Shown piece by piece: positions 50,198-62,874 of a DNA stretch of 64,000 bases. The first letter of the stretch is position 1, and every line of letters starts with the position of its first letter. The translations under genes and the position numbers were made by a program. The notes beneath the pieces are model-generated. The model was not told the DNA's origin and searched no databases. It saw only the letters and a list, made by a program, of their open reading frames with translations. The DNA is from Trichlorobacter thiogenes (GTDB lineage: Bacteria; Desulfobacterota; Desulfuromonadia; Geobacterales; Pseudopelobacteraceae), in NCBI RefSeq assembly GCF_900167465.1, contig NZ_FUWR01000006.1:62001-126000 (forward strand), read 5' to 3'.

Positions 50198-51815
50198 CCA
50201 ACTGTTAAGACAACTACTACCACGCCGATTCTCGCTGATTCAAAAGTTGACTATCCTGACCGGCACCGTGGTGGTGCTGTTCATGACCTTGTTTGCCTGG
50301 GTTAATATCAACAACCTGCAAAAACTGCTGGTCAACAACACCATCCGGGATCTTGACAACCTGGCATCCACCATCATCAGGATGACCCACCATCAGATGC
50401 TGGTGGACAATCGTGTCGTCGTCTACCAGATGATCAATGAAGTGGCCAACCGTCCAGGGATTGAGCGGATCAGGATGATCAATCGCAGCGGCGTGATCGT
50501 CCACTCAACCGCCACTGATGAAATCGGGCAACTGCTGGATCAGAAAGCAGCCCAGTGTAACCTTTGCCACAAACCGGGACAGACGCTGATCCGCCCGCCG
50601 CTGCTTGAGCGCAGCCGTTTCTTTACCCTGCCCAATGGCAAGCAGGTTATGGGACTGGCAAAAGCGGTACAGAACGAACAAAGCTGCTCCACAGCTGCCT
50701 GTCATGCCCATGTCGCTTCCACCAAGGTACTGGGGGTGGTTGATATCATTGTATCCCTGGATGTGCTCAAGGCGGATCTTGCCTCCTATCGCAACCGGAT
50801 CATTCTGCTGACGGTGCTGCTGATCATCCTGCTGGGGGCCTCACTGACCTTTTTTACCCTGCATCTGGTTAATCGACCGGTCAATGAACTGCTTCGCCAC
50901 ACCGCCAGGCTGGCCCAGGGACAACTGGATTGCGAAATGACGCCTACTTCCAATGATGAGCTGGGGGAGCTGATGCGTGCCTTTCAGCTGATGACCAACA
51001 ACCTTCGACAGGCCCGCAATGATCTGGAGGAATGGGGACGCACCCTTGAAGAAAAGGTAAGAGACCGCTCGGAACAGTTGCAGCGGATGCAGATGCAGCT
51101 GGTGCATACAGAAAAACTGGCATCGCTGGGAGAACTGGTGGCCGGTATTGCCCATGAGATCAACAACCCGCTTTCCGGCATCCTGATCTTCAGTTCCTTG
51201 GCAGCCAAGGATAAACGGCTTGATCCGGCGTTAAAGGGAGATCTGGAGACCATCAGCAGCGAAGCCCAGCGCTGCGCCGGTATTGTCAAGGGGTTGCTGG
51301 AATTTGCCCGGGATTACCAACCCAAGATGACGGTATGTGACATCAACCAGGTTGTCGTGGATTCCCTGCGGCTGGTTGAATGCCAGTCTGTCTTCCAGAA
51401 TGTCGCGATCCTGCGCCAACTGGCCAATGACCTGCCGCTGATCATGGCTGACCAGAACCAGCTTAAACAGGTCTTCATCAACATCTTCATCAATGCAGGC
51501 CAGGCCATGCAGGATCTTAAACGGGGCGAACTGAAGATTATCACAGCCAGAGCAGGTGATCCGGCAGGCGGTGTTATACTACGAATTTCTGATTCAGGTT
51601 ACGGCGTGCCGGAAGAACAACTGGGAAAGTTGTTTGATCCCTTCTTTACCACCAAAGGCACCGGTGGTACCGGGTTGGGACTGTCGGTCTCCTACGGCAT
51701 CATTCAGGCCCATGGCGGCACCATTACCGCTGAAAGCAGCATTGGTGTTGGCACAACCTTCAGTATCAGCCTGCCCCCTTGCACTGACAGTAACCAGACC
51801 GATCCGGGGGTTTAA
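50184..51815 (+). CDS. Histidine kinase with periplasmic heme-c-like sensor
   Basis: I chose ATG 50184 (MLKPDQ), which overlaps the regulator stop. The 543-aa protein has TM1 (about 21-41) and a periplasmic domain with CNLCH at 125-129 and a CSTAACH motif at 168-174. TM2 (206-229), HAMP (to ~285) and a coiled coil follow, then HisKA with GIAHEINNPLSG and an HATPase with DSGYGVPEEQLGKLFDPFFTTK and GTGLGLSVS. CxxCH covalently binds heme c; Cx4CH is a rarer accepted variant. A redox- or ligand-sensing heme is therefore likely. The same sensor domain recurs at 53875-54726. Confidence 0.88.
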   Translation: MLKPDQLLRQLLPRRFSLIQKLTILTGTVVVLFMTLFAWVNINNLQKLLVNNTIRDLDNLASTIIRMTHHQMLVDNRVVVYQMINEVANRPGIERIRMINRSGVIVHSTATDEIGQLLDQKAAQCNLCHKPGQTLIRPPLLERSRFFTLPNGKQVMGLAKAVQNEQSCSTAACHAHVASTKVLGVVDIIVSLDVLKADLASYRNRIILLTVLLIILLGASLTFFTLHLVNRPVNELLRHTARLAQGQLDCEMTPTSNDELGELMRAFQLMTNNLRQARNDLEEWGRTLEEKVRDRSEQLQRMQMQLVHTEKLASLGELVAGIAHEINNPLSGILIFSSLAAKDKRLDPALKGDLETISSEAQRCAGIVKGLLEFARDYQPKMTVCDINQVVVDSLRLVECQSVFQNVAILRQLANDLPLIMADQNQLKQVFINIFINAGQAMQDLKRGELKIITARAGDPAGGVILRISDSGYGVPEEQLGKLFDPFFTTKGTGGTGLGLSVSYGIIQAHGGTITAESSIGVGTTFSISLPPCTDSNQTDPGV

Positions 51816-52115
51816 TCAAAACAAGCAGCAACTGCATAGCTGCCGCATACAACTACGAATGAGTGCATATAATTTATATCATCAGTAATTTAAGAATGTT
51901 AGCTGGTATTTGGCATACAGTTTCAATCTGCTACTGCATAGCTAAAACATACAGCAAGCAATCCAGCAACCGCTTAAACGGTCACTGTCTCTAAAAATAA
52001 GTTGATCAATTACAGTTGGTTGCATTTTTATTTTCGATATTTTCATGTTTGGCATCCTCTGTGCTCTATACAGATCATCGTTTATCGATCATACGCAGCA
52101 CCCTGGGAGGATGCC
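51816..52115 (+). promoter_or_regulatory. AT-rich control region before the first small-protein operon
   Basis: The 300 bp carry a sigma-54 promoter (listed separately) and two direct copies of ACTGCATAGCT-N3-RCATACA at 51831-51851 and 51933-51953. They are centred about 235 and 135 bp before the expected transcription start, where sigma-54 activators usually bind. No gene is visible. Confidence 0.55.
52050..52065 (+). promoter_or_regulatory. Sigma-54 promoter of the family A/B/tatA operon
   Basis: TGGCATC-N4-GTGCT has GG and GC at the right -24/-12 spacing, 50 bp before ATG 52116. Confidence 0.8.
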
Positions 52116-52358
52116 ATGAAAACTAAAATCGTTAACTTTTTGATCCCGATGCTCGGCGGCAGTGCAACTTCAGCATTTGCAGCAGACGGCGCACTGCAGG
52201 ATGGCGGTGGACCACTGGTCTGGTTCTTTATCGGCTTTGGCGTACTGGTGTTGATGGTGCAGGCTGTTCCAGCCCTGGTTCTGCTCTATTCGATGGCCAA
52301 GGCTGTTTTCAGCCCATCTGAATCCAGCACCACCGCATCAGTGACAAGTCACAAATAA
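52116..52358 (+). CDS. Small single-pass membrane protein, family A copy 1
   Basis: ATG 52116 follows GGGAGG with good spacing, so the longer frame from 52002 is rejected; it would also cross the promoter. The 80-aa product has a signal peptide (MKTKIVNFLIPMLGGSATSAFA), a ~10-residue Gly/Asp stretch, one transmembrane helix (LVWFFIGFGVLVLMVQAVPALVLLY) and a short tail. The FIGFGVxVxxxQAxPA core recurs in copies at 59413 and 62328 and, more distantly, in family B. Function unknown; position at the head of each sigma-54 operon suggests a structural or assembly role. Confidence 0.82.
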   Translation: MKTKIVNFLIPMLGGSATSAFAADGALQDGGGPLVWFFIGFGVLVLMVQAVPALVLLYSMAKAVFSPSESSTTASVTSHK

Positions 52359-52401
52359 ATCTGATTCATACCAAACCATCTTTATCAAGGAGAACAAAGC
52401 C

Positions 52402-52671
52402 ATGAAATCTGTTCGCACCGCCCTTACCACCCTTGCATTGTCTGTCATTGGCATGAGTAGCGCCTTTGCTTCCGCAGATCACGCCAACCATATTGATACC
52501 AGCCTGACCTATAACAGCGGCATCCTGGTATTGGCCTTTGCCGGCTTCCTGGCCCTGGTGGTAGTGGTGCAGACCATACCTGCCGTTATCAGCCTCTACA
52601 ACATGATCAAAAAGACTGCAGAAGAAAGCAGCAGACAGCAGCAGACTGTACGGGCCAATGCACGGGACTGA
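52402..52671 (+). CDS. Small single-pass membrane protein, family B copy 1
   Basis: The 89-aa product follows AAGGAG. It has a signal peptide ending near SSAFA, a short periplasmic part with DHANHIDTSLTYNSG, one helix (ILVLAFAGFLALVVVVQTIPAVISLY) and a polar tail. The segment HIDTSLTYNSG to VQTIPA is almost identical to the copy at 61645. The helix aligns with family A (GF..LV...VQ.xPA...LY.M..K), so A and B are probably ancient duplicates. Confidence 0.82.
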   Translation: MKSVRTALTTLALSVIGMSSAFASADHANHIDTSLTYNSGILVLAFAGFLALVVVVQTIPAVISLYNMIKKTAEESSRQQQTVRANARD

Positions 52672-53059
52672 TAGTCAGTATGACGGGGGCGAGTCCCTGG
52701 CTCGCCCCTCAGAATCTGATGAGCTGCCAGCAGCAGCGTCCACCGTCTGTGCGTTGCCCAATCAGCCAGATCCTGTTGCCTTCAAACAGGCGATGGATCT
52801 GATCCGCAGACGGCGTAAATATTTTTTCGCCACGGTTATCGCTTATATGCCCCTAATGTGGGTGGCCAACAAGATTTCCCCCACCTTTCGCAGCATGGCC
52901 ATCACCTTCTCTGTCTGGGTGGTGGTGCTGTTTATTACCGCCCTGTACTCTGCCCTGGCACGCTGCCCGCGCTGCGGTCATTACTTTCATATGAACGGCA
53001 TGTCGCTGTTGTATCTGCGGCGCTGTCTGCACTGTCAAAACCATATAAACGCTTCATAG
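52658..53059 (+). CDS. Membrane protein with C-terminal zinc-ribbon-like motif
   Basis: The ATG at 52658 overlaps the family B stop. The 133-aa product has a polar N-terminus, two hydrophobic helices (about 54-70 and 79-97) and a C-terminal CPRCGHYFHMN...RRCLHCQNH, two CxxC pairs that should bind zinc. I do not recognise a family. It lies between family B and tatA in the same operon. Confidence 0.7.
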   Translation: MHGTDSQYDGGESLARPSESDELPAAASTVCALPNQPDPVAFKQAMDLIRRRRKYFFATVIAYMPLMWVANKISPTFRSMAITFSVWVVVLFITALYSALARCPRCGHYFHMNGMSLLYLRRCLHCQNHINAS

Positions 53060-53071
53060 AGGAGAGAGAAT

Positions 53072-53245
53072 ATGTTTGGATTTGGAATGCCGGAACTGGT
53101 GGTGATACTGGGGATTGTGGTGGTGGTGTTTGGAGCAGGCAAGCTGCCGGAGATCGGCGCTGCCATGGGTAAGAGCATCAAGAACTTCAAAACTGCGACA
53201 GAAGGAAATGAAGTAGAACTGCTGCCCAAAAAAGAGGTTCAGTAG
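53072..53245 (+). CDS. tatA: Twin-arginine translocase subunit TatA
   Basis: ATG 53072 follows AGGAGAG. The 57-aa product [40 protein letters not shown] is a textbook TatA/E: a short transmembrane helix, the FGxxKLPE hinge and an amphipathic helix, then a charged tail. TatA forms the pore for folded proteins. Its presence in a sigma-54 operon next to a cluster encoding a Tat-signal ferredoxin (57219-58127) suggests dedicated export. No tatC is in the window. Confidence 0.92.
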
Positions 53246-53259
53246 CGTTCCTCAAAGAG

Positions 53260-53300
53260 ATAAGGCTGGTTCACCTTTCAGTGATACCAGCCTTATTTAC
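53260..53300. terminator. Bidirectional terminator between tatA and the convergent gene
   Basis: ATAAGGCTGGT (53260-53270) pairs with ACCAGCCTTAT (53286-53296), followed by TTAC on the plus strand. It lies just past tatA and overlaps the end of the gene at 53297. Confidence 0.65.
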
Positions 53301-53809
53301 TTTTCCTGCCCGATTCTCCGCTCCAGTATTGCAAGCGTTTCTTCCTCTTCTCTGATCTGAGCCATGCTTAACGACCAGATGTGGTAGCTTTCAAGGCTTA
53401 AGATTGTCATGCCAGTGGCCAGCACGGCCCAGAAGTTCTCCGGCAGCACTCCTGAAAAAAAGTAGAAGGCATAGAAGCAGATCAGGTAGCCGATATGGCT
53501 GAAGGAGACCATCTTGGGGGAGCCGTTGGTGATCCTGCCCAGTACCAGCAGAATGGCGGAAAAAGCATAGACCACCAGCAAGGCGCTGATCATGTTGCTG
53601 GAGGGCGGGGTGCCCAGCATCTTTTTTACTGCAGGGGTAAGGGGGGGGAAGATCCGGTCGCTGAGCATGGCCGGAACACTGGTGCAGGCAAAAGCAGCTA
53701 TGGCCCACAGTCCCTGATGGGAGCGGGTACGCAATCTGCGAATTGATTCCTGCAGGGCGGTACGCTGCGCTTCCTGAGACAGCGTGCTGCCGGTTTCCTG
53801 ATTGGACAT
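53297..53809 (-). CDS. Hypothetical membrane protein, 170 aa
   Basis: The product has a polar N-terminus, four hydrophobic segments (about 33-50, 74-91, 103-119, 125-141) and an acidic C-terminal coil (QIREEEETLAILERRIGQ). I recognise no family. It is the last gene of the minus-strand unit that starts at the sigma-54 promoter 59715-59730, or a separate unit after the terminator at 54771. Confidence 0.65.
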   Translation of the reverse strand: MSNQETGSTLSQEAQRTALQESIRRLRTRSHQGLWAIAAFACTSVPAMLSDRIFPPLTPAVKKMLGTPPSSNMISALLVVYAFSAILLVLGRITNGSPKMVSFSHIGYLICFYAFYFFSGVLPENFWAVLATGMTILSLESYHIWSLSMAQIREEEETLAILERRIGQEK

Positions 53810-53874
53810 GGGATGAGACCTTCTCCGGTTACCGCATGATACCGCTATCTGAATCCCAACCAGCTTTCAGGCCG

Positions 53875-54726
53875 CTAGCCGTTTTCGGTATCATCCTTTT
53901 CTTTGCTGCAATTTCGGCAGCGCGCCAACGCTTCACGGGTATCATTTAAACGTGCGACAATTCGTTGATAGTTACGGGCCAGAATGGAAAGCTCACCGTA
54001 GCCTGATTCCAGTTGTTGTTCAAAATCACACGGTTTTTCGTCGCTGGTAACAGCCAGTAGTTTTTTTAGTGGAACAAAGAATGAGCGGTTCAGCAGGGCA
54101 GCAACACCGCCCACGGTTAGAACCAAAGTCATAAGTGTAAACACTATCATACGGTAGCGCATTAACGCGAGTGAATTTTGAAGTGGCCCTTGATCAAGCC
54201 CGATATCAAGCATACCGAGGACTTTTTGTGTAGGAGAGTGGTAGTGACAGGAGGTGGTTGAGCAGGAAGGTTCATTGTAGATCGGTTGTGTCATGGCTAA
54301 TACTTCAACGCCACGCTCATTGGTAAACCGGCGGGTCTGTTTTACCGCAGCCAGTTGTTCAGCCGGTTTTTCTCCGCTGTGACAGCCACTGCAGCCTTCT
54401 ACCTTTTTATTGACCTGTTGGCCGATCTCAGTCTGGTTACGGGAAAAGGTGATAAATCCATCATGATTGAATACCCGCAGATGCTCAACCCCCTGATGCT
54501 GGCCAATGTTGGCAATGATGCTGCCAAGATGCTGGCGATCATTATGCAGCATGGCGTAGCGGGTCGAGAGCACAACGGTATTGGCGATATTTCGCCCCCC
54601 TTGCGCAGCATCTTCAATCATATCCTGTTTCATGATTGAATAGAGACTTAAGCAGCAGATAGCAACAAAGCCGGTGACGGCAAGACCAACCGGAACGATT
54701 GTTCGGGTAGCGATACTCTGGAGCAT
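53875..54726 (-). CDS. Orphan periplasmic heme-c-like sensor without output domain
   Basis: The 283-aa protein starts with a membrane helix (about 10-30). A periplasmic domain follows with CSGCH at 112-116 and CSTTSCH at 155-161, then a second helix (about 190-210) and a short HAMP/coil region with no kinase, cyclase or receptor-signalling domain. The spacing of the two motifs and the surrounding residues (SCSTxxCHxHxxxxKVLGxxDI) match the kinase at 50184. It could titrate or modulate that kinase, or signal by contact. GGAGGTG precedes the ATG. Confidence 0.8.
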   Translation of the reverse strand: MLQSIATRTIVPVGLAVTGFVAICCLSLYSIMKQDMIEDAAQGGRNIANTVVLSTRYAMLHNDRQHLGSIIANIGQHQGVEHLRVFNHDGFITFSRNQTEIGQQVNKKVEGCSGCHSGEKPAEQLAAVKQTRRFTNERGVEVLAMTQPIYNEPSCSTTSCHYHSPTQKVLGMLDIGLDQGPLQNSLALMRYRMIVFTLMTLVLTVGGVAALLNRSFFVPLKKLLAVTSDEKPCDFEQQLESGYGELSILARNYQRIVARLNDTREALARCRNCSKEKDDTENG

Positions 54727-54770
54727 TGGGCACCTCCGTAGATAGCGCCTTGAATTAAAACAGTAAGCCT

Positions 54771-54810
54771 AAAAAGGGTCGGCAGAGGGGTGCGCCTCCC
54801 CCTGCCGACC
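54771..54810 (-). terminator. Terminator after the dodecaheme cytochrome gene
   Basis: On the minus strand GGTCGGCAG...CTGCCGACC forms a GC-rich stem followed by CTTTTT, 9 bp past the stop codon. Confidence 0.85.
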
Positions 54811-54818
54811 ATAACATT

Positions 54819-55832
54819 TCAGGAGCTCTTATGGCACTTCAGGCAGTCGCCCTTGACCGAGAATGCCGACTTCCCGTCATGGCAGGCGCCACATGATGCG
54901 CCGCTTTCCATCTGCTTCATGGTGATCCGTTTCCCGTTACCGTAGGGATACAACTTGGTGTGACAGTCATTGCACTGGTAGGCAGCGGTGTGAAACTGGT
55001 GGCTGAAGTGGCCGATAACCGTTCCTTTTTTATTTTTAAAGGTCATTTTGGCAGGCAGCTTGAATCCGGTGTGGCACTTGGCGCAGTCGTCCTTGACTGA
55101 AAAGGCTACCTTACCGTCGTGACAGGCACCGCAGGACTGCCCTTTTTCCATATCAGCCATACTGACCCGCTTGTTCTTCTTCATATCCGGCTTCACAATG
55201 GTGTTGTGGCAATCTTTGCAACTATAGGCCGAAGTGTGGAAGGCATGGCTGAAGGTTGCCTTGGGCACCGGCGCTGTTGTGTAGGTCAGCTCCGGGCTCT
55301 TGTGGCATTTGCTGCACTTGTCCACACCAAAGGCCTTTTTGCCGTTGTGACAGAAACCACAGGACTTGCCCTTTTCCATCTCTGCCATGCTGACTGTGGG
55401 GTTCTTGCCGGTCTTGTACAGCTTGGTGTGGCAGGTCGCACAATCCTTTACCTTTGCCAGGTGCTTGGCATGACTGAAAGGGGTTGGTCCGGTCTCTTTG
55501 ACCTGATAGACGATCTCTTTTACCTGGTGACATTTACTGCACTCATGGGCATCAAAGGCCTGCTTGCCGTTGTGACAGGCTCCACAGGACTGACCTTTGT
55601 ACATATCTGCCATGGTGTAGTGTTTCTTACTCTTGTTGCCGGTGTGACAGGTGGCACAACTAAAGGCCGCATTACCGCGAACTGACTTCTTTGCAAGGTG
55701 CTTGTTATGGCTGAATACAACCTTGCCGGCACCTTTGGTGTCGTAATTGATCTCTTTCAAATCTATCGCACCTGCATGGGTGGCCATCAGACCGACCAGT
55801 CCTGCCAATGCGAGTGTTAGGGCGCGTTTCAT
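54819..55832 (-). CDS. Dodecaheme c-type cytochrome (four c7-like triheme repeats)
   Basis: The 337-aa product has a signal peptide (cut near THAGA) and twelve CxxCH motifs. They come in four repeats of three hemes, each of the form FSHxxH...FSCATCH...MxKGxSCGACHxGKxAF...CxKCH. This is the triheme c7-type fold joined in a chain, as in the dodecaheme 'nanowire' cytochrome of Geobacter sulfurreducens. It should carry electrons across the periplasm from the NrfD module encoded just upstream. AGGAG precedes the ATG. Confidence 0.92.
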   Translation of the reverse strand: MKRALTLALAGLVGLMATHAGAIDLKEINYDTKGAGKVVFSHNKHLAKKSVRGNAAFSCATCHTGNKSKKHYTMADMYKGQSCGACHNGKQAFDAHECSKCHQVKEIVYQVKETGPTPFSHAKHLAKVKDCATCHTKLYKTGKNPTVSMAEMEKGKSCGFCHNGKKAFGVDKCSKCHKSPELTYTTAPVPKATFSHAFHTSAYSCKDCHNTIVKPDMKKNKRVSMADMEKGQSCGACHDGKVAFSVKDDCAKCHTGFKLPAKMTFKNKKGTVIGHFSHQFHTAAYQCNDCHTKLYPYGNGKRITMKQMESGASCGACHDGKSAFSVKGDCLKCHKSS

Positions 55833-55890
55833 GACGATCTCCTGAATCCCTCTGCCTGCATGGTGTCAGACAGAGGGATGGTCGGTTGTA

Positions 55891-57222
55891 TTACTTGCTG
55901 CTTGCAGCTTCGGCCTCGGCAATGGCTGCCGGTGTGGGTTCAAGCACCGCATACTCGCTGTAGCGGGTCTTCCATTTGAACAGGATCGGCCAGCGGTACA
56001 GGATTGCACGGTAGGTAACGATATAGACCGAGTAGACCGTAACGGTGATGATGATCTCGCGGATTGGCGGAATATGCACATGTCCCTGCTGCCAGTTAAA
56101 GGTGAACATGTAGACATTCAGGCGGTTCAGCACGACACCGATGATGGTGGTCCAGGCACCCATCCGTACCAGGGTAACACTGTTGTTTCTGATGCCTGCG
56201 GTCAGCAGGATCATTGACAGCACAACCCCAAAGCCGATCTCGAACATCCACCAGGCACCCCAGCCGGTTCCCAGGTAGGCCCACTTGTTGTCATGGGCAA
56301 TGCCGATCAGACGGATGGTCAGGTAGGTGATCAGGCCCATGGAGGCGCCTTTGGCCAGGGCGATCTGCAGCTTGCTCAGGCTGTTTTTAAAGGTTCCGTC
56401 ACAACGCCAGCCCATGGTCTTTACTGCAATGGTACTGACTACGATGACCATACAAAGGCCGCCAGGCAGTGAGGAGACAAAGAAGTAGAGCCACTGGAAT
56501 GACGCTGAATACCAGAGCGGGTGAACCTTACCCGGTGCATAGGTGGAAAGCGCGCCCAGAGCGCCCTGGTGCAGGGTTGAGAGAATGATACCGGCTACGG
56601 CCAGACCCAGGGCCATCTTTTTTACAAAGGTCTTGCCAGCCGGCCAGCCCATCCATTCAAAGAAGGCGGTGGATGTTTCTGCAGCCTGTACCGACAGGTA
56701 GGTGGCAACGTGCCAGGCCACCAGGAACAGTACCGCTTCAGGACCCCAGGAGACCACCATCGGGTAGGGCAGACGCCAGGGTTGCCCAAGGTCAACCATC
56801 AGGAACATGACGGCAAAGAAGTAACCAAGGATACCGTTCAGGATACCCAGACGCTCAATAGGTTCAAAATCATGGCGTCCGAACACCTCAACCGCAGAGC
56901 CAAGCTGGAAGCCGGATGATGATAGCGGCACCATGCCGAACAGACCAAAGGCCAGAAACAGACCCCAGGCGTTATCGTACGGGTCACCTACGGCCCAAGA
57001 GAGACCGAAGATGTAGCGACCGATCAGAACCGGGAAACCGATCAGGAAGATCACGGCAAAGATCCAGTTCAGCGGATTGCTCATGGCCTGAGAAAGGTAC
57101 TGCTGCGGTGTCAGACCAAGGAAGATCTTTTCCATCAGGGTCCAGGGACGACCCTTATCATTATCCTTGCGCAGACTGTCAATGATCTGCGTGCTGGGAT
57201 TACGGCTCAGAAACTGTTTCAT
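55891..57222 (-). CDS. NrfD/PsrC-type quinone-interacting membrane subunit
   Basis: The 443-aa protein has about ten transmembrane helices and the NrfD family pattern, beginning PLNWIFAVIFLIGFPVLIGRYIFGLSWAV and including FEPIERLGILNGILGYFFAVMFLMVDLGQPWR. NrfD proteins exchange electrons between menaquinol and a periplasmic ferredoxin subunit. The start overlaps the ferredoxin stop (ATGA), so the two are co-translated. With the flanking cytochromes it makes a Cbc- or Qrc-like quinone-cytochrome complex. Confidence 0.92.
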   Translation of the reverse strand: MKQFLSRNPSTQIIDSLRKDNDKGRPWTLMEKIFLGLTPQQYLSQAMSNPLNWIFAVIFLIGFPVLIGRYIFGLSWAVGDPYDNAWGLFLAFGLFGMVPLSSSGFQLGSAVEVFGRHDFEPIERLGILNGILGYFFAVMFLMVDLGQPWRLPYPMVVSWGPEAVLFLVAWHVATYLSVQAAETSTAFFEWMGWPAGKTFVKKMALGLAVAGIILSTLHQGALGALSTYAPGKVHPLWYSASFQWLYFFVSSLPGGLCMVIVVSTIAVKTMGWRCDGTFKNSLSKLQIALAKGASMGLITYLTIRLIGIAHDNKWAYLGTGWGAWWMFEIGFGVVLSMILLTAGIRNNSVTLVRMGAWTTIIGVVLNRLNVYMFTFNWQQGHVHIPPIREIIITVTVYSVYIVTYRAILYRWPILFKWKTRYSEYAVLEPTPAAIAEAEAASSK

Positions 57223-58127
57223 TGGTGATCTCCCTCCTCATGGTCATGGTGGCCGTCCTTGTTTTTGGTTGCCAGCAGGTGAACGCCGGTAAACAGGGCT
57301 GGCCAGATGGAAAGTACCATTGGCACGAATCCCAGGAAGTCTTTGACGTTGGAGATGATCGGCTCATTCTGGATATGACCGTCAAAACCGACCTTGTCGA
57401 AATCAACGCTGCTCAGATACATCCAGCTGGTGCCACCAACGGCCTTTTCACCATACAGCTTGTCCACATATTTTGCCGGGTTGGCCTGAATCCGGTCATG
57501 GCCCAGCTTGATCAGGTCTGCCCTGCGACCAAAGGTCATGACCTGCTGTGGACAGATATCGACACATGCCGGTGGCTTGCCATCTTTCAGGCGGGTGTCG
57601 TAGCAGAAGATACATTTCTTAACCAGCGGGTTCAGCGGGCTTGAGTAGCTGTACGCCGGGATATTAAAGGGACAGGCGATCATGCAGTTACGACAGCCGA
57701 CACAGACCTTGGCGTTGTAGATAACCGCACCTTCCTTGGTCTTGGTGTAGGCGTTTACAAAGCAGGAGCTGAGGCAGGCCGGCTCGGTGCAATGGTTACA
57801 CTGGATCTTGCGGAACAGGGTTTCCTTGTCGGCCACTTGGTACTTGTTAACAACCGTATAGGCCTTTTCTGTGGTACGCCGCTTGTCGCTGAATACAGAC
57901 GTGTCATCAAATGCCAGATCAGGCTCCGGCAACTTCTGCTCTGCGTTACAGGCGGCCTCGCAACTACGGCAGCCAACACAACGGGTCAGGTCAACCAGCA
58001 CCCCCATTGCATCCGGGTATCCTTCAAATGAACCGGCTGCCATCGCCTTTCCACTGGCAACAGATACTGTTGCAGCGGTTACACCGCAGGCCAGACACCC
58101 TTTCAGAAAATCTCGACGTTCAATCAT
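57219..58127 (-). CDS. Tat-exported ferredoxin subunit with four [4Fe-4S] sites (NrfC/PsrB type)
   Basis: I place the start at ATG 58127 with AAGGAG upstream; it gives MIERRDFLKGCLACG, a Tat signal (RRDFLK). The longer frame (58274) runs into the cytochrome gene. Sixteen cysteines form four clusters: CVGCRSCEAAC, CNHCTEPACLSSC, CVGCRNCMIACP and CIFC...CVDICP. A C-terminal helix (FLGFVPMVLSIWPALFTGVHLL) anchors it, and the tail is His-rich. It should pass electrons between NrfD and the cytochromes. Tat export links it to tatA at 53072. Confidence 0.92.
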   Translation of the reverse strand: MIERRDFLKGCLACGVTAATVSVASGKAMAAGSFEGYPDAMGVLVDLTRCVGCRSCEAACNAEQKLPEPDLAFDDTSVFSDKRRTTEKAYTVVNKYQVADKETLFRKIQCNHCTEPACLSSCFVNAYTKTKEGAVIYNAKVCVGCRNCMIACPFNIPAYSYSSPLNPLVKKCIFCYDTRLKDGKPPACVDICPQQVMTFGRRADLIKLGHDRIQANPAKYVDKLYGEKAVGGTSWMYLSSVDFDKVGFDGHIQNEPIISNVKDFLGFVPMVLSIWPALFTGVHLLATKNKDGHHDHEEGDHQ

Positions 58128-58158
58128 GGTACACGTTCTCCTTCCCGTGGATATCAGT

Positions 58159-58689
58159 TCAGTGGTGTGCTGCCTTAGGCTTGGCAGGTGCCTTGGGGGC
58201 GTATTTGCCGGACTTGAAGATGGCATCGCCGCCATCGTTCCGTTTGTGGCAATCCTGGCAGCCGGTTGGTCCATGCATCTTCTCGTGGCATCCCAGGCAA
58301 CTGATATGGTAGGCAGCTTTCAGACCCGGCTTGTCACGGTGATAGATCGGCGGCTGCTGATCACGCTGTTGTTTGAGCGCCTCAGGGGTAAACGGCTCTG
58401 CGGTGTGACACCCTTTACAGCTGACCACCGCCTGGGCACCACTGTTCTTGTGGCAACGGGCACAGTTGGGATCGGTAACCTGAGCTCCGGTGGTGTGGTG
58501 GTGGCACAGACCGCAGTCTTTCAGCTTGTTGATGTGGGCTGCGTGGTTGAAACTGACCGGGGCGTAGTACTTCTGAATTGAGTTGATGGTGACCTTGTCC
58601 GGAATACCGGCTCCAAAACAGACGCTGGATACCAGCATCATCAGTATGCCTGTCACTCCCAGGATCATCTGTCGCTTTACTGCATGCAT
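58159..58689 (-). CDS. Pentaheme c-type cytochrome
   Basis: The 176-aa product has a signal peptide (cut near CFGAG) and five CxxCH motifs: CGLCH, CARCH, CKGCH, CLGCH and CQDCH, with class III-like spacing and extra histidines (FNHAAHINK, GCHEKMHGP) for axial ligands. A Lys/Pro/Ala tail ends in HH. It is encoded directly before the ferredoxin and should be the partner cytochrome of the NrfD complex. Confidence 0.9.
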   Translation of the reverse strand: MHAVKRQMILGVTGILMMLVSSVCFGAGIPDKVTINSIQKYYAPVSFNHAAHINKLKDCGLCHHHTTGAQVTDPNCARCHKNSGAQAVVSCKGCHTAEPFTPEALKQQRDQQPPIYHRDKPGLKAAYHISCLGCHEKMHGPTGCQDCHKRNDGGDAIFKSGKYAPKAPAKPKAAHH

Positions 58690-58759
58690 AGCCCTCTCCT
58701 TGTAAAAGATGGCCGGTATCGCTGTAGATACCGGTAGTAAGTGCAGAAACCGGATGTTC

Positions 58760-58936
58760 CTAGTGGGCTGCTTCCTGCGTGCTGCTTTTGCCGCTCATCA
58801 TGTACCGGTAGAACATCGGAAAACCGACAAAGAACGCAACACAGATCAGGTATTCAACCGTTTTGATGTACTGGTAAAAATCCACCAGCGTGTACACCGA
58901 CTTGACATGTCCAATTGCACTGAATAACTCCGTCAT
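58760..58936 (-). CDS. 58-aa membrane protein, family C copy 1
   Basis: ATG 58936 follows AAGGAGG and the frame closes at TAG 58760. The product starts MTELFSAIGHVKSVYTLVDFY and has one helix (VEYLICVAFFVGFPMFYRY), then MMSGK and a polar tail. It differs from the copy at 61444 at only 7 of 58 positions; residues 8-50 are identical. Small one-helix subunits accompany NrfD complexes such as Hmc and Tmc, so a subunit role is plausible. I recognise no named family. Confidence 0.85.
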   Translation of the reverse strand: MTELFSAIGHVKSVYTLVDFYQYIKTVEYLICVAFFVGFPMFYRYMMSGKSSTQEAAH

Positions 58937-59001
58937 GATCCTATCCTCCTTTTATCTGTGCCGATTGATGATCGGCTGTATTTGCTTTACTGGTTCCGGC
59001 G

Positions 59002-59382
59002 TTATGAATTTTTCATATTCTCAAAGGCACAGGCCACGGCCTGACGCAGCTCTTCCCGATCTGCCGGATCGATCGGCTTCAGGGAGTGATAAAAGATCCC
59101 TTCCTTACGCATCTTGCGGATCACCGGCAGCGAGGTCTCGTCCGAGACAAGAATAATGGTCAGGTCACGACTGCACTTCTTCAGCAGCGGAATCAGCTCT
59201 GCTGCTGCCAGTTCATCAAATTCACTGCTTAACAACACCACCTGGGCAGACTTTTTCAAAATGCCGTGCAGTACGTTTGCGGCCGAGGTGGTTACCATCA
59301 CATTGTAGCCGGCCTCAATACAGAGGTCGGCCAGCACCTTGCGGGATTCAACGTTTTCATCTGCTATCAGAACACCTTGCAT
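59002..59382 (-). CDS. Receiver-like protein lacking the phosphoacceptor Asp, copy 1
   Basis: The 126-aa single-domain protein has the CheY fold: LIADENVESRKVL (acidic pair kept), strand VVLLS where Ser52 replaces the phosphoacceptor Asp, IILVSDETS and FYHSLKP with the conserved Lys. Most residues agree with the copy at 61930. It is thus unlikely to be phosphorylated in the normal way and may act by protein contact. It sits between families A and C. Confidence 0.83.
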   Translation of the reverse strand: MQGVLIADENVESRKVLADLCIEAGYNVMVTTSAANVLHGILKKSAQVVLLSSEFDELAAAELIPLLKKCSRDLTIILVSDETSLPVIRKMRKEGIFYHSLKPIDPADREELRQAVACAFENMKNS

Positions 59383-59412
59383 AGCGGTTACCTCTGTTTC
59401 CTGGAGAAAAGT

Positions 59413-59664
59413 CTACTTGTTGCCTTTTCCCTTAAACGGAGAGAAGGAGGCCTCAGCCGGATTGCTGGAAAACAGCCCTTTCATCATCGATGCAAACATC
59501 ACAACAGCTGGGGCGGCCTGGAACAGCACAACCATGACGCCAAAGCCGATGAAGAACCAGACCAGCATGCCGTTGCCGCCCGGTTCTGCACCGCTTGCCG
59601 CAGCAGATGCGGCGGTTGCACTACCGGCAACTATCGGAACCAGTATTTTCAAGACTTTTTTCAT
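59413..59664 (-). CDS. Small single-pass membrane protein, family A copy 2
   Basis: The ATG at 59664, after CGGAG, gives MKKVLKILVPIVAGSATAASA, a signal peptide; the track-length frame adds eight residues before it. After a Gly-rich stretch comes one helix (MLVWFFIGFGVMVVLFQAAPAVVMF) and a tail of 30 polar residues. It is the first gene 51 bp after the sigma-54 promoter at 59715-59730. Confidence 0.82.
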   Translation of the reverse strand: MKKVLKILVPIVAGSATAASAAASGAEPGGNGMLVWFFIGFGVMVVLFQAAPAVVMFASMMKGLFSSNPAEASFSPFKGKGNK

Positions 59665-59714
59665 GTTTACGCTCCGGGAGTCTCTCAAGAATCATTAAAA
59701 TACACTTAACCTAG

Positions 59715-59730
59715 AGCACGCATCGTGCCA
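59715..59730 (-). promoter_or_regulatory. Sigma-54 promoter of the cytochrome/NrfD operon
   Basis: On the minus strand TGGCACG-N4-GTGCT: the -24 box is the exact consensus and the -12 GC is at the right spacing. Confidence 0.87.
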
Positions 59731-60052
59731 GTCTTGAATCGAGCAGAAAGTTAGCCACTAACCTGCTGGTATAGTTGAATAATTAATATCGTATCATGTA
59801 TCCAAAACATGGTTTTGATTTGTGTATACTGTATACAATCAGGATACACAGATGCAGACAGCACCCTGTCATGACGGATAAATGCAATTGCAACTAGCCG
59901 TTATTGCGGTGTTTATTTATGGTGTATACGCAATATATACGTGGTCTGCAGGTGTATAGCTGAAGAGAGAGGGCGAGGATGCTACAAAAAAAACCCTCCC
60001 CGGCAGCAGCAAGGGAGGGATGAAAAGATCTGACAAGAAGAACTGGTTTAGG
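59731..60052 (-). promoter_or_regulatory. Upstream region with TATAC dyads, candidate activator sites
   Basis: The gap holds the dyad TGTATACTGTATACA (59823-59837), about 100 bp before the sigma-54 promoter, and further GTGTATA motifs at 59932 and 59951 (about 200 and 225 bp). The ten bases GTGTATACGC at 59932-59941 recur beside the ORP promoter at 44681-44690. The right end holds the terminator listed below. No gene is seen. Confidence 0.5.
59986..60019 (-). terminator. Terminator of the HAD gene
   Basis: On the minus strand CCCTCCC pairs with GGGAGGG (12-nt loop), followed by eight T. Confidence 0.9.
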
Positions 60053-60520
60053 TCAGCTGCGCAGAGTGGCTGCAATCCGCTGAGGAACCATAAGCAGTCC
60101 GAGGGCATCATAGATGCTTCGGGCGACAATATCCGCCTGCAGGATGGCGCTGACAGCGCTGCCTTCACCTTCCAGCACCGCAATGCCAAGCCGGGCGACC
60201 TTCAGCATCAGCCGGTCATTGGCACCATTACCGATGCAGACCACAGAATCAGCGCCTAATGCCTGGACATAGGCCTCCTTCTGCTCTGCCTCATTTCCGC
60301 TTGCAATGATATGCAGCGTACAGGGCAATCCATCAACCTCCTGCGCTACTGTGCCACCACTGTCTGCAGTAAGGATATGAATGGTAATCCTGCCTGCAAG
60401 ATCTGTAATGGTCTTATCAAGATTGGACAGTAACAGGCCATCACGGGCAATGGTGCCGTTATAGTCAAAGACCAGATGTTTCAGCTCAATGGATCCGATG
60501 CTGGGAATAGTGATCTGCAT
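60053..60520 (-). CDS. HAD-superfamily soluble phosphatase (P-type ATPase-like domain)
   Basis: The 155-aa protein shows HAD motif I FDYNGTIA (Asp nucleophile in LVFDYNG), motif II LTADSGG and motif IV GNGANDRLML, in the compact capless form related to the phosphorylation domain of P-type ATPases. Substrate unknown; the second acidic residue of motif I is Asn rather than Asp. It follows the 82-aa gene by 12 bp and ends at a strong terminator. Confidence 0.83.
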   Translation of the reverse strand: MQITIPSIGSIELKHLVFDYNGTIARDGLLLSNLDKTITDLAGRITIHILTADSGGTVAQEVDGLPCTLHIIASGNEAEQKEAYVQALGADSVVCIGNGANDRLMLKVARLGIAVLEGEGSAVSAILQADIVARSIYDALGLLMVPQRIAATLRS

Positions 60521-60532
60521 GGTTTAGTAACC

Positions 60533-60781
60533 TCAAGGGTTTGAAATACGCTTCAGGGTTTCCGAAATATCCTTAACACTGCAGGTCTCACTGAAACAAC
60601 CGGTACCGGCATACAGGTCAAAATTGCGTAGCTGACCAATCAGCTTTTTCAGTTCCGGTTCATGCTCCGGCAGGGCTGCCGTTTCAGCAACGGCAAGAAT
60701 CTCTGCCAGAAGACTGTCAGGCAGTTCAGCATCACGGTTTTGCTCACAGGCAACGGCTCGTAACTCTTCAGATACGGTCAT
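60533..60781 (-). CDS. Small hypothetical helical protein
   Basis: I prefer ATG 60781 (MTVSEELRAVACEQ) with GAGGGG upstream over the start 11 codons earlier. The 82-aa acidic product is mostly helical, with LPDSLLAEILAVAETAALPEHEPELKKLIGQLRNFDLYAG and two cysteines near the end (TGCFSETCSV). No family recognised. It appears co-transcribed with the HAD gene. Confidence 0.6.
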   Translation of the reverse strand: MTVSEELRAVACEQNRDAELPDSLLAEILAVAETAALPEHEPELKKLIGQLRNFDLYAGTGCFSETCSVKDISETLKRISNP

Positions 60782-60872
60782 GGCATTCCCCCTCACAGGT
60801 TCAGGATTAAACATGAATGTATTTTAATGGTATGCAGTATGCCAAAGCTCCACGAAACAGTAAACCGCAAAC

Positions 60873-60911
60873 CTCAGAAGGGGGCCGGAATATACCAGGC
60901 CTCCTTCTGAG
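60873..60911. terminator. Hairpin between the NifX-like and the 82-aa genes
   Basis: A 14-bp stem (60873-60886 with 60898-60911, one mismatch) has an 11-nt loop and no T-run. It may end or process the sigma-54 transcript from 62610. Confidence 0.45.
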
Positions 60912-61018
60912 TATATGCGGACCTGGCCGCCTGCGAGTAAAGTCACGGGCATTTTTAACGTTCAATTAGGCAAACAATTACAAGAACATTTCTCTGAATG
61001 CTGCCCATCTCAGGGAAA

Positions 61019-61333
61019 TCAGATCAGACAGAGTGTTGAGAGGATCCTGCTTGCAGATTCATCAGCTGCATTAACGACGCAGATCCCTGATTTCAACATT
61101 GATTCTTTAATCTCTTTTTCAGGCATATGGGTACAGACAAGCTGTTTGACATTCAGAGAAATCAGCCACGCAGCTAAAAGAGGCTGTTCGCTGGCATCCC
61201 AGACCCCCATGTTGACATTGCTGGTGCTTCCGTTTCTGTCGTCGTATTCCAGCAAGAAAAAGATCCGCTCAAACCCTTTGCCTTCATAGGTGAGTGAGCC
61301 GTAGTACGGTATAGCTGTCTTGATTATGGTCAT
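61019..61333 (-). CDS. NifX/Orp-like domain protein
   Basis: The 104-aa product MTIIKTAIPYYGSLTYEGKGFERIFFLLEYDD... with LLAAWLISLNVKQLVCTHMPEKEIKESMLKSGICVVN follows the PF02579 (NifX/orange protein) pattern, though divergent: the usual AF..F(G/D) start is altered. It is the last member of the sigma-54 unit from 62610 and links that unit to the ORP-type genes at 44.7-48 kb. Start chosen by frame; no strong ribosome site. Confidence 0.65.
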   Translation of the reverse strand: MTIIKTAIPYYGSLTYEGKGFERIFFLLEYDDRNGSTSNVNMGVWDASEQPLLAAWLISLNVKQLVCTHMPEKEIKESMLKSGICVVNAADESASRILSTLCLI

Positions 61334-61386
61334 GGATTGGTTACTTTGGTTTTGTCCGGCAGAAGTAGATTACTCAGAGAAACGTA

Positions 61387-61422
61387 TACACAGGGTGTCT
61401 TCTGAATTAGACACCCTGTGTA
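61387..61422. terminator. 13-bp perfect inverted repeat
   Basis: TACACAGGGTGTC (61387-61399) and its complement (61410-61422) enclose 10 nt between family C copy 2 and the NifX-like gene. No T-run; it may reduce read-through. Confidence 0.5.
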
Positions 61423-61443
61423 CACGAGGATTACTGTACTGGG

Positions 61444-61620
61444 TCAGTGTGCAGTTTCCTGTGTGTTGTTCTTGCCGCTCATCATGTAGCGATAGAACAT
61501 GGGAAAACCGACAAAGAAGGCAACGCAGATCAGGTATTCAACGGTCTTGATATACTGGTAAAAATCAACCAGGGTGTAGACAGATTTTACATGGCCTATG
61601 GTATCGAAAAGTGCTGACAT
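61444..61620 (-). CDS. 58-aa membrane protein, family C copy 2
   Basis: ATG 61620 follows AGGAGG. The product MSALFDTIGHVKSVYTLVDFY...YLICVAFFVGFPMFYRYMMSGK is identical to the copy at 58760 from residue 8 to 50; differences are confined to both ends. Such strong conservation in a one-helix protein means tight contact with a partner. The partner NrfD complex is absent from this second unit, so this copy must serve a complex encoded elsewhere or share the one at 54.8-58.7 kb. Confidence 0.85.
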   Translation of the reverse strand: MSALFDTIGHVKSVYTLVDFYQYIKTVEYLICVAFFVGFPMFYRYMMSGKNNTQETAH

Positions 61621-61644
61621 GGTGGTATCCTCCTGTATGGTTAG

Positions 61645-61911
61645 CTACCTGTTGGATGAGGTTGAACGAGCTTCCTTGTTTTTAACTGCCTCAGCTGCGC
61701 CCTTGATCATGCCGTACAGACTGATGAGTGCCGGGATGGTCTGGACAACAACTACCAGGGCCAGGAATCCGGCAAATGCCAGCACCAGAATGCCGCTGTT
61801 ATAGGTCAGGCTGGTATCAATGACATCACCATGACCGGCAGAAGCAAAGGCGGTTGTCAGGCTTGCAAGCAGCAGGGTTACGGTGTTGATCATAGTTGCG
61901 GTTGTTTTCAT
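61645..61911 (-). CDS. Small single-pass membrane protein, family B copy 2
   Basis: The 88-aa product has a signal peptide ending near TTAFA, then SAGHGDVIDTSLTYNSG, one helix (ILVLAFAGFLALVVVVQTIPALISLY) and a polar tail (GMIKGAAEAVKNKEARS). The IDTSLTYNSG-to-VQTIPA block is identical to copy 1 at 52402. AAGGAG precedes the ATG. Confidence 0.83.
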   Translation of the reverse strand: MKTTATMINTVTLLLASLTTAFASAGHGDVIDTSLTYNSGILVLAFAGFLALVVVVQTIPALISLYGMIKGAAEAVKNKEARSTSSNR

Positions 61912-61929
61912 GGCATTTCTCCTTTTGAT

Positions 61930-62316
61930 CTAGCAGTAGCAACGCTTTGGTTGGTGTAAGGCACAGTTGATAACCTGCTTCAACTCTTCCCTGTCTTCGG
62001 GCAGTACCGGCCGGAGCAGGTGATAAAAAATCCCTTCGTTACGCATCTTGCGAATCACCGGCAATGAAGCCTCGTTTGATACCAGTATGATGGTCAGGTT
62101 TCGGCAGCACTTTTTAAAAAGCGGAATCAGGTCTGTTGCTGCCAGTTCATCAAAGCTGCTCCCCAATAAAATAACTTGTGCTGTTTTTTTCAAGATCCCC
62201 TGCAGTACCGCAGCAGCCGTGGTGGTGACGGTCACGTTATAACCGGCTTCCATACAGAGGTCTGCCATTACCTTACGTGATTCAGGGTGCTCTTCAGCGA
62301 TTAAGATCCGGTTCAT
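61930..62316 (-). CDS. Receiver-like protein lacking the phosphoacceptor Asp, copy 2
   Basis: The 128-aa protein parallels the copy at 59002: LIAEEHPESRKVM, strand VILLG with Gly52 where Asp is expected, IILVSNEAS and FYHLLRP, where the conserved Lys is Arg. Two of the key receiver residues are thus lost, and phosphorylation at the usual site is excluded. It lies between families A and B. Confidence 0.83.
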   Translation of the reverse strand: MNRILIAEEHPESRKVMADLCMEAGYNVTVTTTAAAVLQGILKKTAQVILLGSSFDELAATDLIPLFKKCCRNLTIILVSNEASLPVIRKMRNEGIFYHLLRPVLPEDREELKQVINCALHQPKRCYC

Positions 62317-62327
62317 AGCTGACCCCT

Positions 62328-62564
62328 TCAGTGTTTATTGACGGTAATTTCTTTATCTGAGTGGGCAAAAAGCCCTTTCAGCATTGAGGCAAATAGAATC
62401 ATGGCCGGTACCGCCTGCACCATAATCACCATGACACCAAAGCCTATGAAGGCCCAGATCAACAGGCCGTTTTCTTCAGCGCCAGCACCGGTTGTTGCTG
62501 CAAAAGCTGCTGCTGCACCTGCGCCGATTAGTGCTATGATCATTTTGATGATTGTTGCTTTCAT
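62328..62564 (-). CDS. Small single-pass membrane protein, family A copy 3
   Basis: The 78-aa product has a signal peptide (MKATIIKMIIALIGAGAAAAFA), a short TTGAGAEENG stretch, one helix (LLIWAFIGFGVMVIMVQAVPAMILF) and a polar tail. It is the first gene 45 bp after the sigma-54 promoter at 62610-62625. Confidence 0.83.
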   Translation of the reverse strand: MKATIIKMIIALIGAGAAAAFAATTGAGAEENGLLIWAFIGFGVMVIMVQAVPAMILFASMLKGLFAHSDKEITVNKH

Positions 62565-62609
62565 GACATCCCCCTTTTACTGCATCAGTTCCCGCTTGTT
62601 GTTCTAATA

Positions 62610-62625
62610 AGCACAGACAGTGCCA
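62610..62625 (-). promoter_or_regulatory. Sigma-54 promoter of the third small-protein operon
   Basis: On the minus strand TGGCACT-N4-GTGCT has the -24 GG and -12 GC at the exact spacing. Confidence 0.85.
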
Positions 62626-62874
62626 ACGGCTGGCTACTTATGGTATTTAGTTGTAATTGAATGATATTATTGCGATAAAATTATGGCAAGGCCAAGGCGG
62701 GCGGGGGTCAATGATCCGCTGAGGAGTATTGCTTTGCTATGCACCAAACCGAAAAAATAACGTGATTATGAGGCTAAGATGCTGATAAGACTGTAATACA
62801 GTATATGGCAGGAAAGAAGGCTGCTGTATGAAGGAATCATGCAGGGGGATATTCGGCTGGAGATACTATGCTGA
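62626..62874. other. Intergenic region upstream of the third operon
   Basis: No gene is visible. CTGTAATACAG (62792-62802) is a small dyad about 170 bp before the sigma-54 promoter. The histidine kinase gene ends at the right border, so this is the space between two same-strand units. Confidence 0.35.

Follow-up and report, generated by a model that had tools for sequence, protein, structure and literature searches.

A Cbc5-like operon with an Nhc/Hmc-like core, an undescribed small-protein family and a putative sigma-54 regulon in Trichlorobacter thiogenes

Three described systems come closest to the locus reported here, as far as the passages of the cited papers that deal with them go. First, Cbc5 (cbcEDCBA, CbcBA) of Geobacter sulfurreducens contains a heptaheme cytochrome and a cytochrome b561 (PMC7726332, PMC7894505, PMC11434368) and is described as a menaquinol:ferricytochrome c oxidoreductase (PMC7726332; PMC11434368), with CbcBA in use near -0.2 V (PMC12307469; PMC10553843). 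Second, Nhc (NhcABCD) combines a multiheme cytochrome, a 4Fe-4S protein, an NrfD protein and a small subunit (PMC8076601). Third, Hmc comprises HmcABCDEF together with Rrf1 and Rrf2 (PMC10924467). In the present study, we describe a locus in a 64,000-nucleotide stretch of Trichlorobacter thiogenes DNA (assembly GCF_900167465.1, contig NZ_FUWR01000006.1, positions 62,001 to 126,000; hereafter the window), which belongs to a genome of 3.57 Mb in 42 contigs. One operon of this locus, unit 2, is Cbc5-like with an Nhc/Hmc-like core, and it is headed by a small-protein family that seems to be undescribed. This stretch probably represents the home locus of a single regulon for low-potential respiration, consisting of three sigma-54 units and an adjacent regulator and heme kinase.

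The first-pass annotation of this DNA had described three units that each start with a family A protein behind a -24/-12 box, and all three are borne out by the present analysis. Families B and C and the receivers without a phospho-acceptor Asp had been placed in two units each, which also holds (59%, 88% and 69% identity within the pairs; A2 and A3 are 49 and 47% identical to A1), as do a pentaheme cytochrome, a Tat ferredoxin, an NrfD protein, a dodecaheme cytochrome and a heme-type sensor in one unit (unit 2) and tatA in another (unit 1). The unit list was incomplete, and a zinc-ribbon-like protein (52658-53059), the upstream dyads and a regulator with its kinase (48779-51815) have been added. 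The regulator is called BccR-like after BccR, the sigma-54 regulator of G. sulfurreducens Cbc5, whose role in cbcBA expression is reported to have been described by Joshi and colleagues in 2021. The features are as follows, in window coordinates.

48779-50197, plus strand: BccR-like sigma-54 response regulator (receiver, AAA and Fis HTH by Pfam), the proposed activator of all three units
50187-51815, plus strand: heme-type sensor histidine kinase (one CxxCH, one Cx4CH, HAMP, HisKA and HATPase, by motifs and Pfam)
51833-51851, no strand: upstream dyad of unit 1, far copy (TGYAT-N9-ATRCA), a proposed regulator site
51935-51953, no strand: upstream dyad of unit 1, near copy (TGYAT-N9-ATRCA)
52050-52065, plus strand: sigma-54 box of unit 1 (TGGCAY-N6-TGCT)
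52116-52358, plus strand: family A protein 1 (A1; AxA signal peptide and one transmembrane helix, by eye)
52402-52671, plus strand: family B protein 1 (B1; A superfamily)
52658-53059, plus strand: membrane protein of unit 1 with zinc-ribbon-like Cys pairs (sub-threshold Pfam zinc-ribbon matches)
53072-53245, plus strand: TatA of unit 1 (PF02416, E 2.5e-18)
59830-59848, no strand: upstream dyad of unit 2 (TGYAT-N9-ATRCA)
59715-59730, minus strand: sigma-54 box of unit 2 (TGGCAY-N6-TGCT)
59413-59664, minus strand: family A protein 2 (A2), unit 2
59002-59382, minus strand: Asp-less receiver 1, unit 2 (PF00072; Ser at the acceptor site)
58760-58936, minus strand: family C protein 1, HmcD-like, unit 2 (88% identical to C 2)
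58159-58689, minus strand: core pentaheme cytochrome c, unit 2 (five CxxCH; PF02085)
57219-58127, minus strand: HmcB-like 4Fe-4S protein with Tat signal, unit 2 (NF045715, 390 bits, cut-off 420; TIGR01409)
55891-57222, minus strand: HmcC-like quinone subunit of the NrfD family, unit 2 (NF045714, 313 bits, cut-off 550)
54819-55832, minus strand: CbcC-like dodecaheme cytochrome, unit 2 (12 CxxCH; 48-50% identical to the protein in CbcC position in L040, L043, L047, L048 and L050)
53875-54726, minus strand: CbcD-like heme-HAMP membrane protein, unit 2, a kinase-less relative of the regulator's sensor (homology to the kinase sensor half)
53297-53809, minus strand: CbcE-like membrane protein, unit 2 (38-40% identical to the proteins in CbcE position in the same five loci; without a Pfam match)
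62825-62843, no strand: upstream dyad of unit 3 (TGYAT-N9-ATRCA; far spacing)
62610-62625, minus strand: sigma-54 box of unit 3 (TGGCAY-N6-TGCT)
62328-62564, minus strand: family A protein 3 (A3), unit 3
61930-62316, minus strand: Asp-less receiver 2, unit 3
61645-61911, minus strand: family B protein 2, unit 3
61444-61620, minus strand: family C protein 2 (C 2), HmcD-like, unit 3 (NF045712, 21.6 bits, E 1.6e-4, cut-off 34)
61383-61426, minus strand: terminator-like hairpin after unit 3 (18 bp; z -7.1)

The box form TGGCAY-N6-TGCT, derived from the three window sites themselves, has exactly three matches in the window (dinucleotide shuffles gave a mean of 0.53 and reached three in 1 of 100), ending 51, 51 and 46 bases before the A-gene ATG of units 1, 2 and 3. 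The standard -24/-12 consensus with two mismatches matched 52 times in the window against 52.6 expected, so that a generic scan alone is uninformative, and the box alone matched 75 times in the organism's own genome compared with 27 for the backward pattern. A dyad, TGYAT-N9-ATRCA, was spotted by eye ahead of each of the three boxes. The window contains five copies of it, whereas shuffles average 0.34 and never exceed 2; the 3.57-Mb genome as a whole contains 17, five of them within this 11 kb, against six for the backward control. The fifth dyad, at 60818-60836, lies just before a gene pair encoding a 93-aa and a HAD-like protein, without a matching sigma-54 box. Because the dyad was discovered on window data, it was tested in other genomes. 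When 20 relative loci were inspected together with the window, an A-led unit with the box was found in 20 of the 21 sources (not L051) and the dyad, by hand count, in 18 (not L041, L042 or L051), with the box some 101-128 and/or 198-228 bases away; single A-led units without the dyad also occur in L038 and L039.

When 76 family genomes were searched, blind to genes, for the near-spaced dyad followed by the box, this yielded 62 sites (60 fetched, two from the window) in 34 genomes, and none for the backward pattern. An A gene follows at 58 of them (56 of 60 when the window's own two are set aside); the first start codon lies within 65 nt at 56 of these 58, and a profile built from the window A and B proteins only recovers all 58 (worst E 5.6e-10). 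Two of the remaining four sites lie near contig ends and two open with a receiver gene. Of the A-led sites, 18 show a lone A gene with 900 nt or more of sequence in view and 2 a lone A gene on a short contig; the others contain A+A (17), A+A+C (1), A+A+receiver (11) and A+receiver+C (9). Upstream of receiver operons in the 76 named loci with enough sequence, the box was found in 52, the dyad in 53 and both in 41, compared with 45, 58 and 20 among 2444 random windows of the same loci. Instead of reflecting selected regulation, the dyads and boxes held in common might be left over from a recent duplication of the three units, since the units are paralogous and one genome (G063) has three dispersed copies that share about 690 bp; however, dyad, spacing and box also precede A genes just 25-48% identical to A1, and the DNA between dyad and box differs widely, which makes such an origin very improbable.

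The distribution of the regulator points in the same direction as a common switch. A counterpart at E 1e-140 or better was found in 60 of the 76 family genomes, in single copy in 57 of the 60. Counting A among the matches listed, both genes occur in 60 genomes, the regulator only in none, A only in two and neither in 14 (Fisher p 1.7e-13, shared ancestry ignored); the two exceptions are a 73% complete genome (G069) and one with a single weak A match (G058). Since dyad, box and A gene travel together across genomes and A co-occurs with the regulator, the assignment of the three units to one predicted sigma-54 regulon is well supported by sequence, and the regulon proposed in the first-pass annotation stands at this level. 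The arrangement expected of an enhancer-dependent sigma-54 operon, a -24/-12 box with activator-type sites upstream, is present in the sequence. A site for IHF between dyad and box is suggestive only: one form was found at 1 of 62 sites forward and at 13 of 62 in either orientation (shuffle mean 1.0), and in the other orientation exact matches occur at 12 of 62 against 0.54 in mononucleotide shuffles, and matches with one change at 36 of 62 against 8.9.

The regulator and the kinase are 65-67% and 41-44% identical, respectively, to their counterparts in CbcB-type loci of relatives. In the kinase, the sensor half carries two c-type heme motifs and is homologous to the CbcD-like protein of unit 2 (30% over 184 aa, E 3e-26), and this heme-HAMP protein has no kinase part. 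The redox state of the hemes may drive the kinase, and the activator would bind the dyad.

The likeness to Cbc5 was judged through these CbcB-type loci of relatives. Shared with Cbc5 on this basis are the CbcC-, CbcD- and CbcE-like genes, the adjacent sigma-54 regulator and heme kinase, and A plus a receiver at the operon head. Unlike Cbc5, no heptaheme CbcA or b561 CbcB is found among the open reading frames of units 1-3, and a core of C, pentaheme, HmcB-like and HmcC-like genes sits where CbcA and CbcB would be. The common order in relatives is regulator and heme kinase, A, receiver, A/B, core, CbcC, CbcD and CbcE, and the same chassis in other genomes carries a heptaheme cytochrome with cytochrome b561 (CbcB, PF01292). 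Among 78 named loci, the core of the operon is of the HmcB/C type in 49, of the CbcB type in 17 and neither or cut off in 12, and no operon scored for both. CbcD and CbcE each occur in 40 of the 49 HmcB/C-type and 14 of the 17 CbcB-type operons, and in 16 of the 49 HmcB/C-type loci a CbcB gene lies on the opposite strand. When the core type was placed on trees, the receiver tree, which has few columns, required five changes of label (66 rows), the CbcD tree, which has long branches, six (53 rows) and the regulator tree four (48 rows), of which two, three and two are forced by well-supported branches; the 12 loci without a readable core had been dropped, and 53 of 54 CbcD and 48 of 50 nearby regulator sequences were kept by length and distance. 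As the core changes on all three trees, it looks like an exchangeable part, which indicates that two kinds of putative quinol core have taken each other's place several times on a single chassis. A search of an open-licence library brought up no Geobacter paper on an HmcB/C-type core in a Cbc5 setting.

The NrfD-type core itself resembles known complexes without matching any of them. In NCBIfam, the ferredoxin falls near HmcB, the NrfD protein near HmcC and C (scored on the C 2 copy) near HmcD, all three below cut-off (390/420, 313/550 and 21.6/34 bits), and these proteins are thus relatives of HmcB, HmcC and HmcD rather than members. The dodecaheme cytochrome reaches 13 bits against 400 for the hexadecaheme HmcA, and no HmcE- or HmcF-like gene is among the open reading frames listed and scanned at 51.7-63 kb. 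Likened by description, the core differs from Nhc in having a pentaheme cytochrome instead of the nonaheme NhcA and in its Cbc5-type chassis and regulation. A search of the PDB gave no match for the NrfD protein or C. TatA in unit 1 and the Tat signal on the ferredoxin fit export of the latter.

Family C goes with this core. It occurs in all 49 NrfD-core operons and in none of the 17 CbcB-core operons, for which reason we assign it to the NrfD core. An HmcC-like gene of at least 310 bits, a line placed once the drop from 313 to 276 bits was known, is present in 23 of the 76 family genomes and C in 25; C occurs in all 23 genomes with the high-scoring gene and in 2 of the 53 without it, namely G069, which has an HmcC fragment, and G005, which is 52% complete. 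The two genes lie within 3.5 kb of each other in 21 of the 23 and on different contigs in G024 and G070. Taken more broadly, HmcC-like NrfD genes are common, with one or more at E 1e-30 or better in 64 of the 76 family genomes. The earlier suggestion that the small proteins are parts of an electron-transfer system, to be judged by their co-occurrence with NrfD, is thus upheld for C.

The same suggestion is not supported for A and B, whose genes occur in at least 62 of the 76 family genomes, against 23 for the high-scoring NrfD type. The two had been taken as separate families; they recur as described, but align as one superfamily (B is 33-37% identical to A1, with an invariant G..F..Q..PA). 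Read by eye, A has a signal peptide whose AxA is conserved, then a short linker, a single hydrophobic helix in which Phe, Gln and Pro are conserved, and finally a polar tail of modest length. For 16 diverse members, the best E values were 0.01 in Pfam and 0.0038 in PHROGs, each in one or two members; A1 matched nothing in Pfam or NCBIfam at 0.1 and reached E 0.51 at best in the PDB, and B1 gave sub-threshold matches only in Pfam and NCBIfam. As no curated family covers A, the superfamily appears to be undescribed. A genome may hold up to 12 A/B copies, and A was found in at least 40 of 395 genomes sampled across the phylum. In genome G063, three B-type copies (L236, L237, L238) share their dyads, box, gene and terminator, are 77-88% identical and lie at unrelated sites. 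A tblastn search with A1 alone at 1e-3 matched nothing in the plasmid or phage collections, and a role as plasmid or phage passenger was dropped.

It might be argued that A and B belong to quinol:cytochrome complexes of both core types as structural or assembly subunits, with several copies per genome serving several complexes, because A heads 58 of the 66 operons with a readable core (15 of 17 CbcB-type and 43 of 49 NrfD-type) and because A and a receiver also stand ahead of one core or the other in distant families (L240, L241, L246, L250, L253). However, at 18 of the 62 gene-blind sites a lone A gene has no receiver, second A or C in at least 900 nt downstream, and 21 loci picked around lone A genes have unrelated neighbours, shared only by sister-genome pairs (L228/L229, L042/L227) and, in two loci, as a zinc-ribbon-like gene. 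Moreover, when 20 contexts fetched from the phylum-wide A genomes were counted by hand, the core was of the CbcB type in 6 and of the HmcC type in 5, and the remaining 9 had neither. A subunit role of this kind is therefore rather unlikely, and a place for A or B in the NrfD complex was rejected because many A genes stand alone. Judged against the condition that the first-pass annotation set for its own refutation, A often occurs without NrfD alongside; boxes are usual, the strict pattern finding them at 52 of 76 operons. Lone A genes among unrelated neighbours, and distant contexts with either core or neither, tie A to the switch and not to one complex, and A and B may serve the membrane or respiratory state generally. 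We tentatively entertain the bolder view that A, many copies of which share this dyad and sigma-54 control, is the main output of a dedicated switch, made near the energetic limit of respiration and altering the inner membrane or the quinone pool, and that the exchangeable quinol core merely rides along with the switch as a passenger.

Both window receivers lack the phospho-acceptor Asp, with Ser or Gly at this position. Among 50 distinct homologues, the position is Gly in 33, Ser in 13 and Asp in four; these four (L123, L141-L143) are distant receivers, and their Asp suggests that the loss is derived. Like the kinase-less heme-HAMP protein, the Asp-less receivers probably act as signalling copies without catalytic activity, which would feed back on the switch.

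Published data, within the passages that report these genes, can be compared with this picture. GSU0597 and GSU0596, candidate A and receiver genes by locus order, change together in PMC10599522, where seven of eleven counter-regulated genes (GSU0597, GSU0596, GSU3489, GSU2750, GSU2751/dcuB, GSU3409 and GSU3410) share one sign and four have the other. GSU3410 and GSU3489 are up with cbcA and cbcB under cobalt (PMC7726332), GSU3409 and GSU3410 are up on Fe(0) (PMC6520446), and GSU3409, GSU0597 and GSU3410 are down in a csrA mutant (PMC11934962). These data fit a tie between A and the switch without proving it, and the GSU genes are candidate A proteins only.

Herein, we propose the following mechanism for the regulon. 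The heme-type kinase (50187-51815) would read the periplasmic redox state and phosphorylate the adjacent sigma-54 activator (48779-50197), which would fire units 1, 2 and 3 together by binding TGYAT-N9-ATRCA dyads that precede the TGGCAY-N6-TGCW boxes by about 100 and/or 200 bp. The product of unit 2 would be a membrane quinol:cytochrome c oxidoreductase, in which an NrfD-type core, with C as its small subunit, replaces the cytochrome b561 CbcB and heptaheme CbcA of the relatives' Cbc5 operon. The NrfD-type subunit might exchange electrons with menaquinone, and the Tat-exported ferredoxin and the pentaheme might hand them to the dodecaheme CbcC-like cytochrome and then to periplasmic carriers. 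A and B, as signal-peptide, single-helix proteins of the inner membrane, would be produced each time the regulon is switched on, next to one core or the other or by themselves, and the Asp-less receivers and the kinase-less heme-HAMP copy would tune the switch.

Several points weigh against this reading. The strict patterns miss the box in 24 and the dyad in 23 of the 76 receiver operons, unit 3 fails the near-spacing combined pattern since its dyad is the far one, and the dyad could belong to another activator. CbcC was scored in just 18 of the 49 NrfD-type operons, and a terminator-like hairpin (54777-54810) lies between the CbcC-like and CbcD-like genes. Many of the compared genomes are close relatives, and the counts are not independent. 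The regulon and the complex are both predicted from sequence. Moreover, NrfD complexes can reduce quinone, and Nhc is listed as a Tpic3:quinone oxidoreductase in the relevant passage of PMC8076601. The complex of unit 2 might thus run backwards, passing electrons of periplasmic cytochromes (from hydrogen, formate or partner cells) into menaquinone, and its multiheme, ferredoxin, NrfD and small subunit are the composition given for Nhc in the same source. Sequence cannot fix the direction, but chassis, regulator and kinase match those of Cbc5, which is described as a menaquinol:ferricytochrome c oxidoreductase in PMC7726332 and PMC11434368, and we regard the reverse direction as unlikely. In the preferred reading, the architecture, the co-occurrence and the core exchange are visible in the compared sequences themselves, while quinol oxidation as the direction of flow would follow from the Cbc5 type of the chassis.

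Some neighbouring features were also observed. A NifX-like gene (61019-61333) that the first-pass annotation had counted in unit 3 has no NifX-type Pfam match and is probably outside the unit, as it follows the terminator-like hairpin at 61383-61426. A PAS histidine kinase (62875-63999) precedes unit 3, likewise in relatives where this part is covered (e.g. L034-L039, L144-L148), and is a possible second input to the switch. In two relatives (L034:12846-14318 and L035:10198-11670), a 490-aa open reading frame with five CxxCH, which is absent from the window, lies between the HAD-like gene and A2; that of L034 is of the cytochrome c554 type (PF13435). Relatives of the zinc-ribbon-like membrane protein (52658-53059) occur near A genes in L226, L232, L245 and L256. 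The closest receivers to those of the window among the 78 named loci are 99% identical, with a contig of a Trichlorobacter metagenome-assembled genome on top and two more at 99%.

Taken with these reservations, dyad, spacing and box would provide a testable DNA code for a switch apparently employed by relatives where metal respiration reaches its low-energy end, and the A/B proteins would represent an apparently undescribed, multi-copy small-protein family linked to this low-energy switch.

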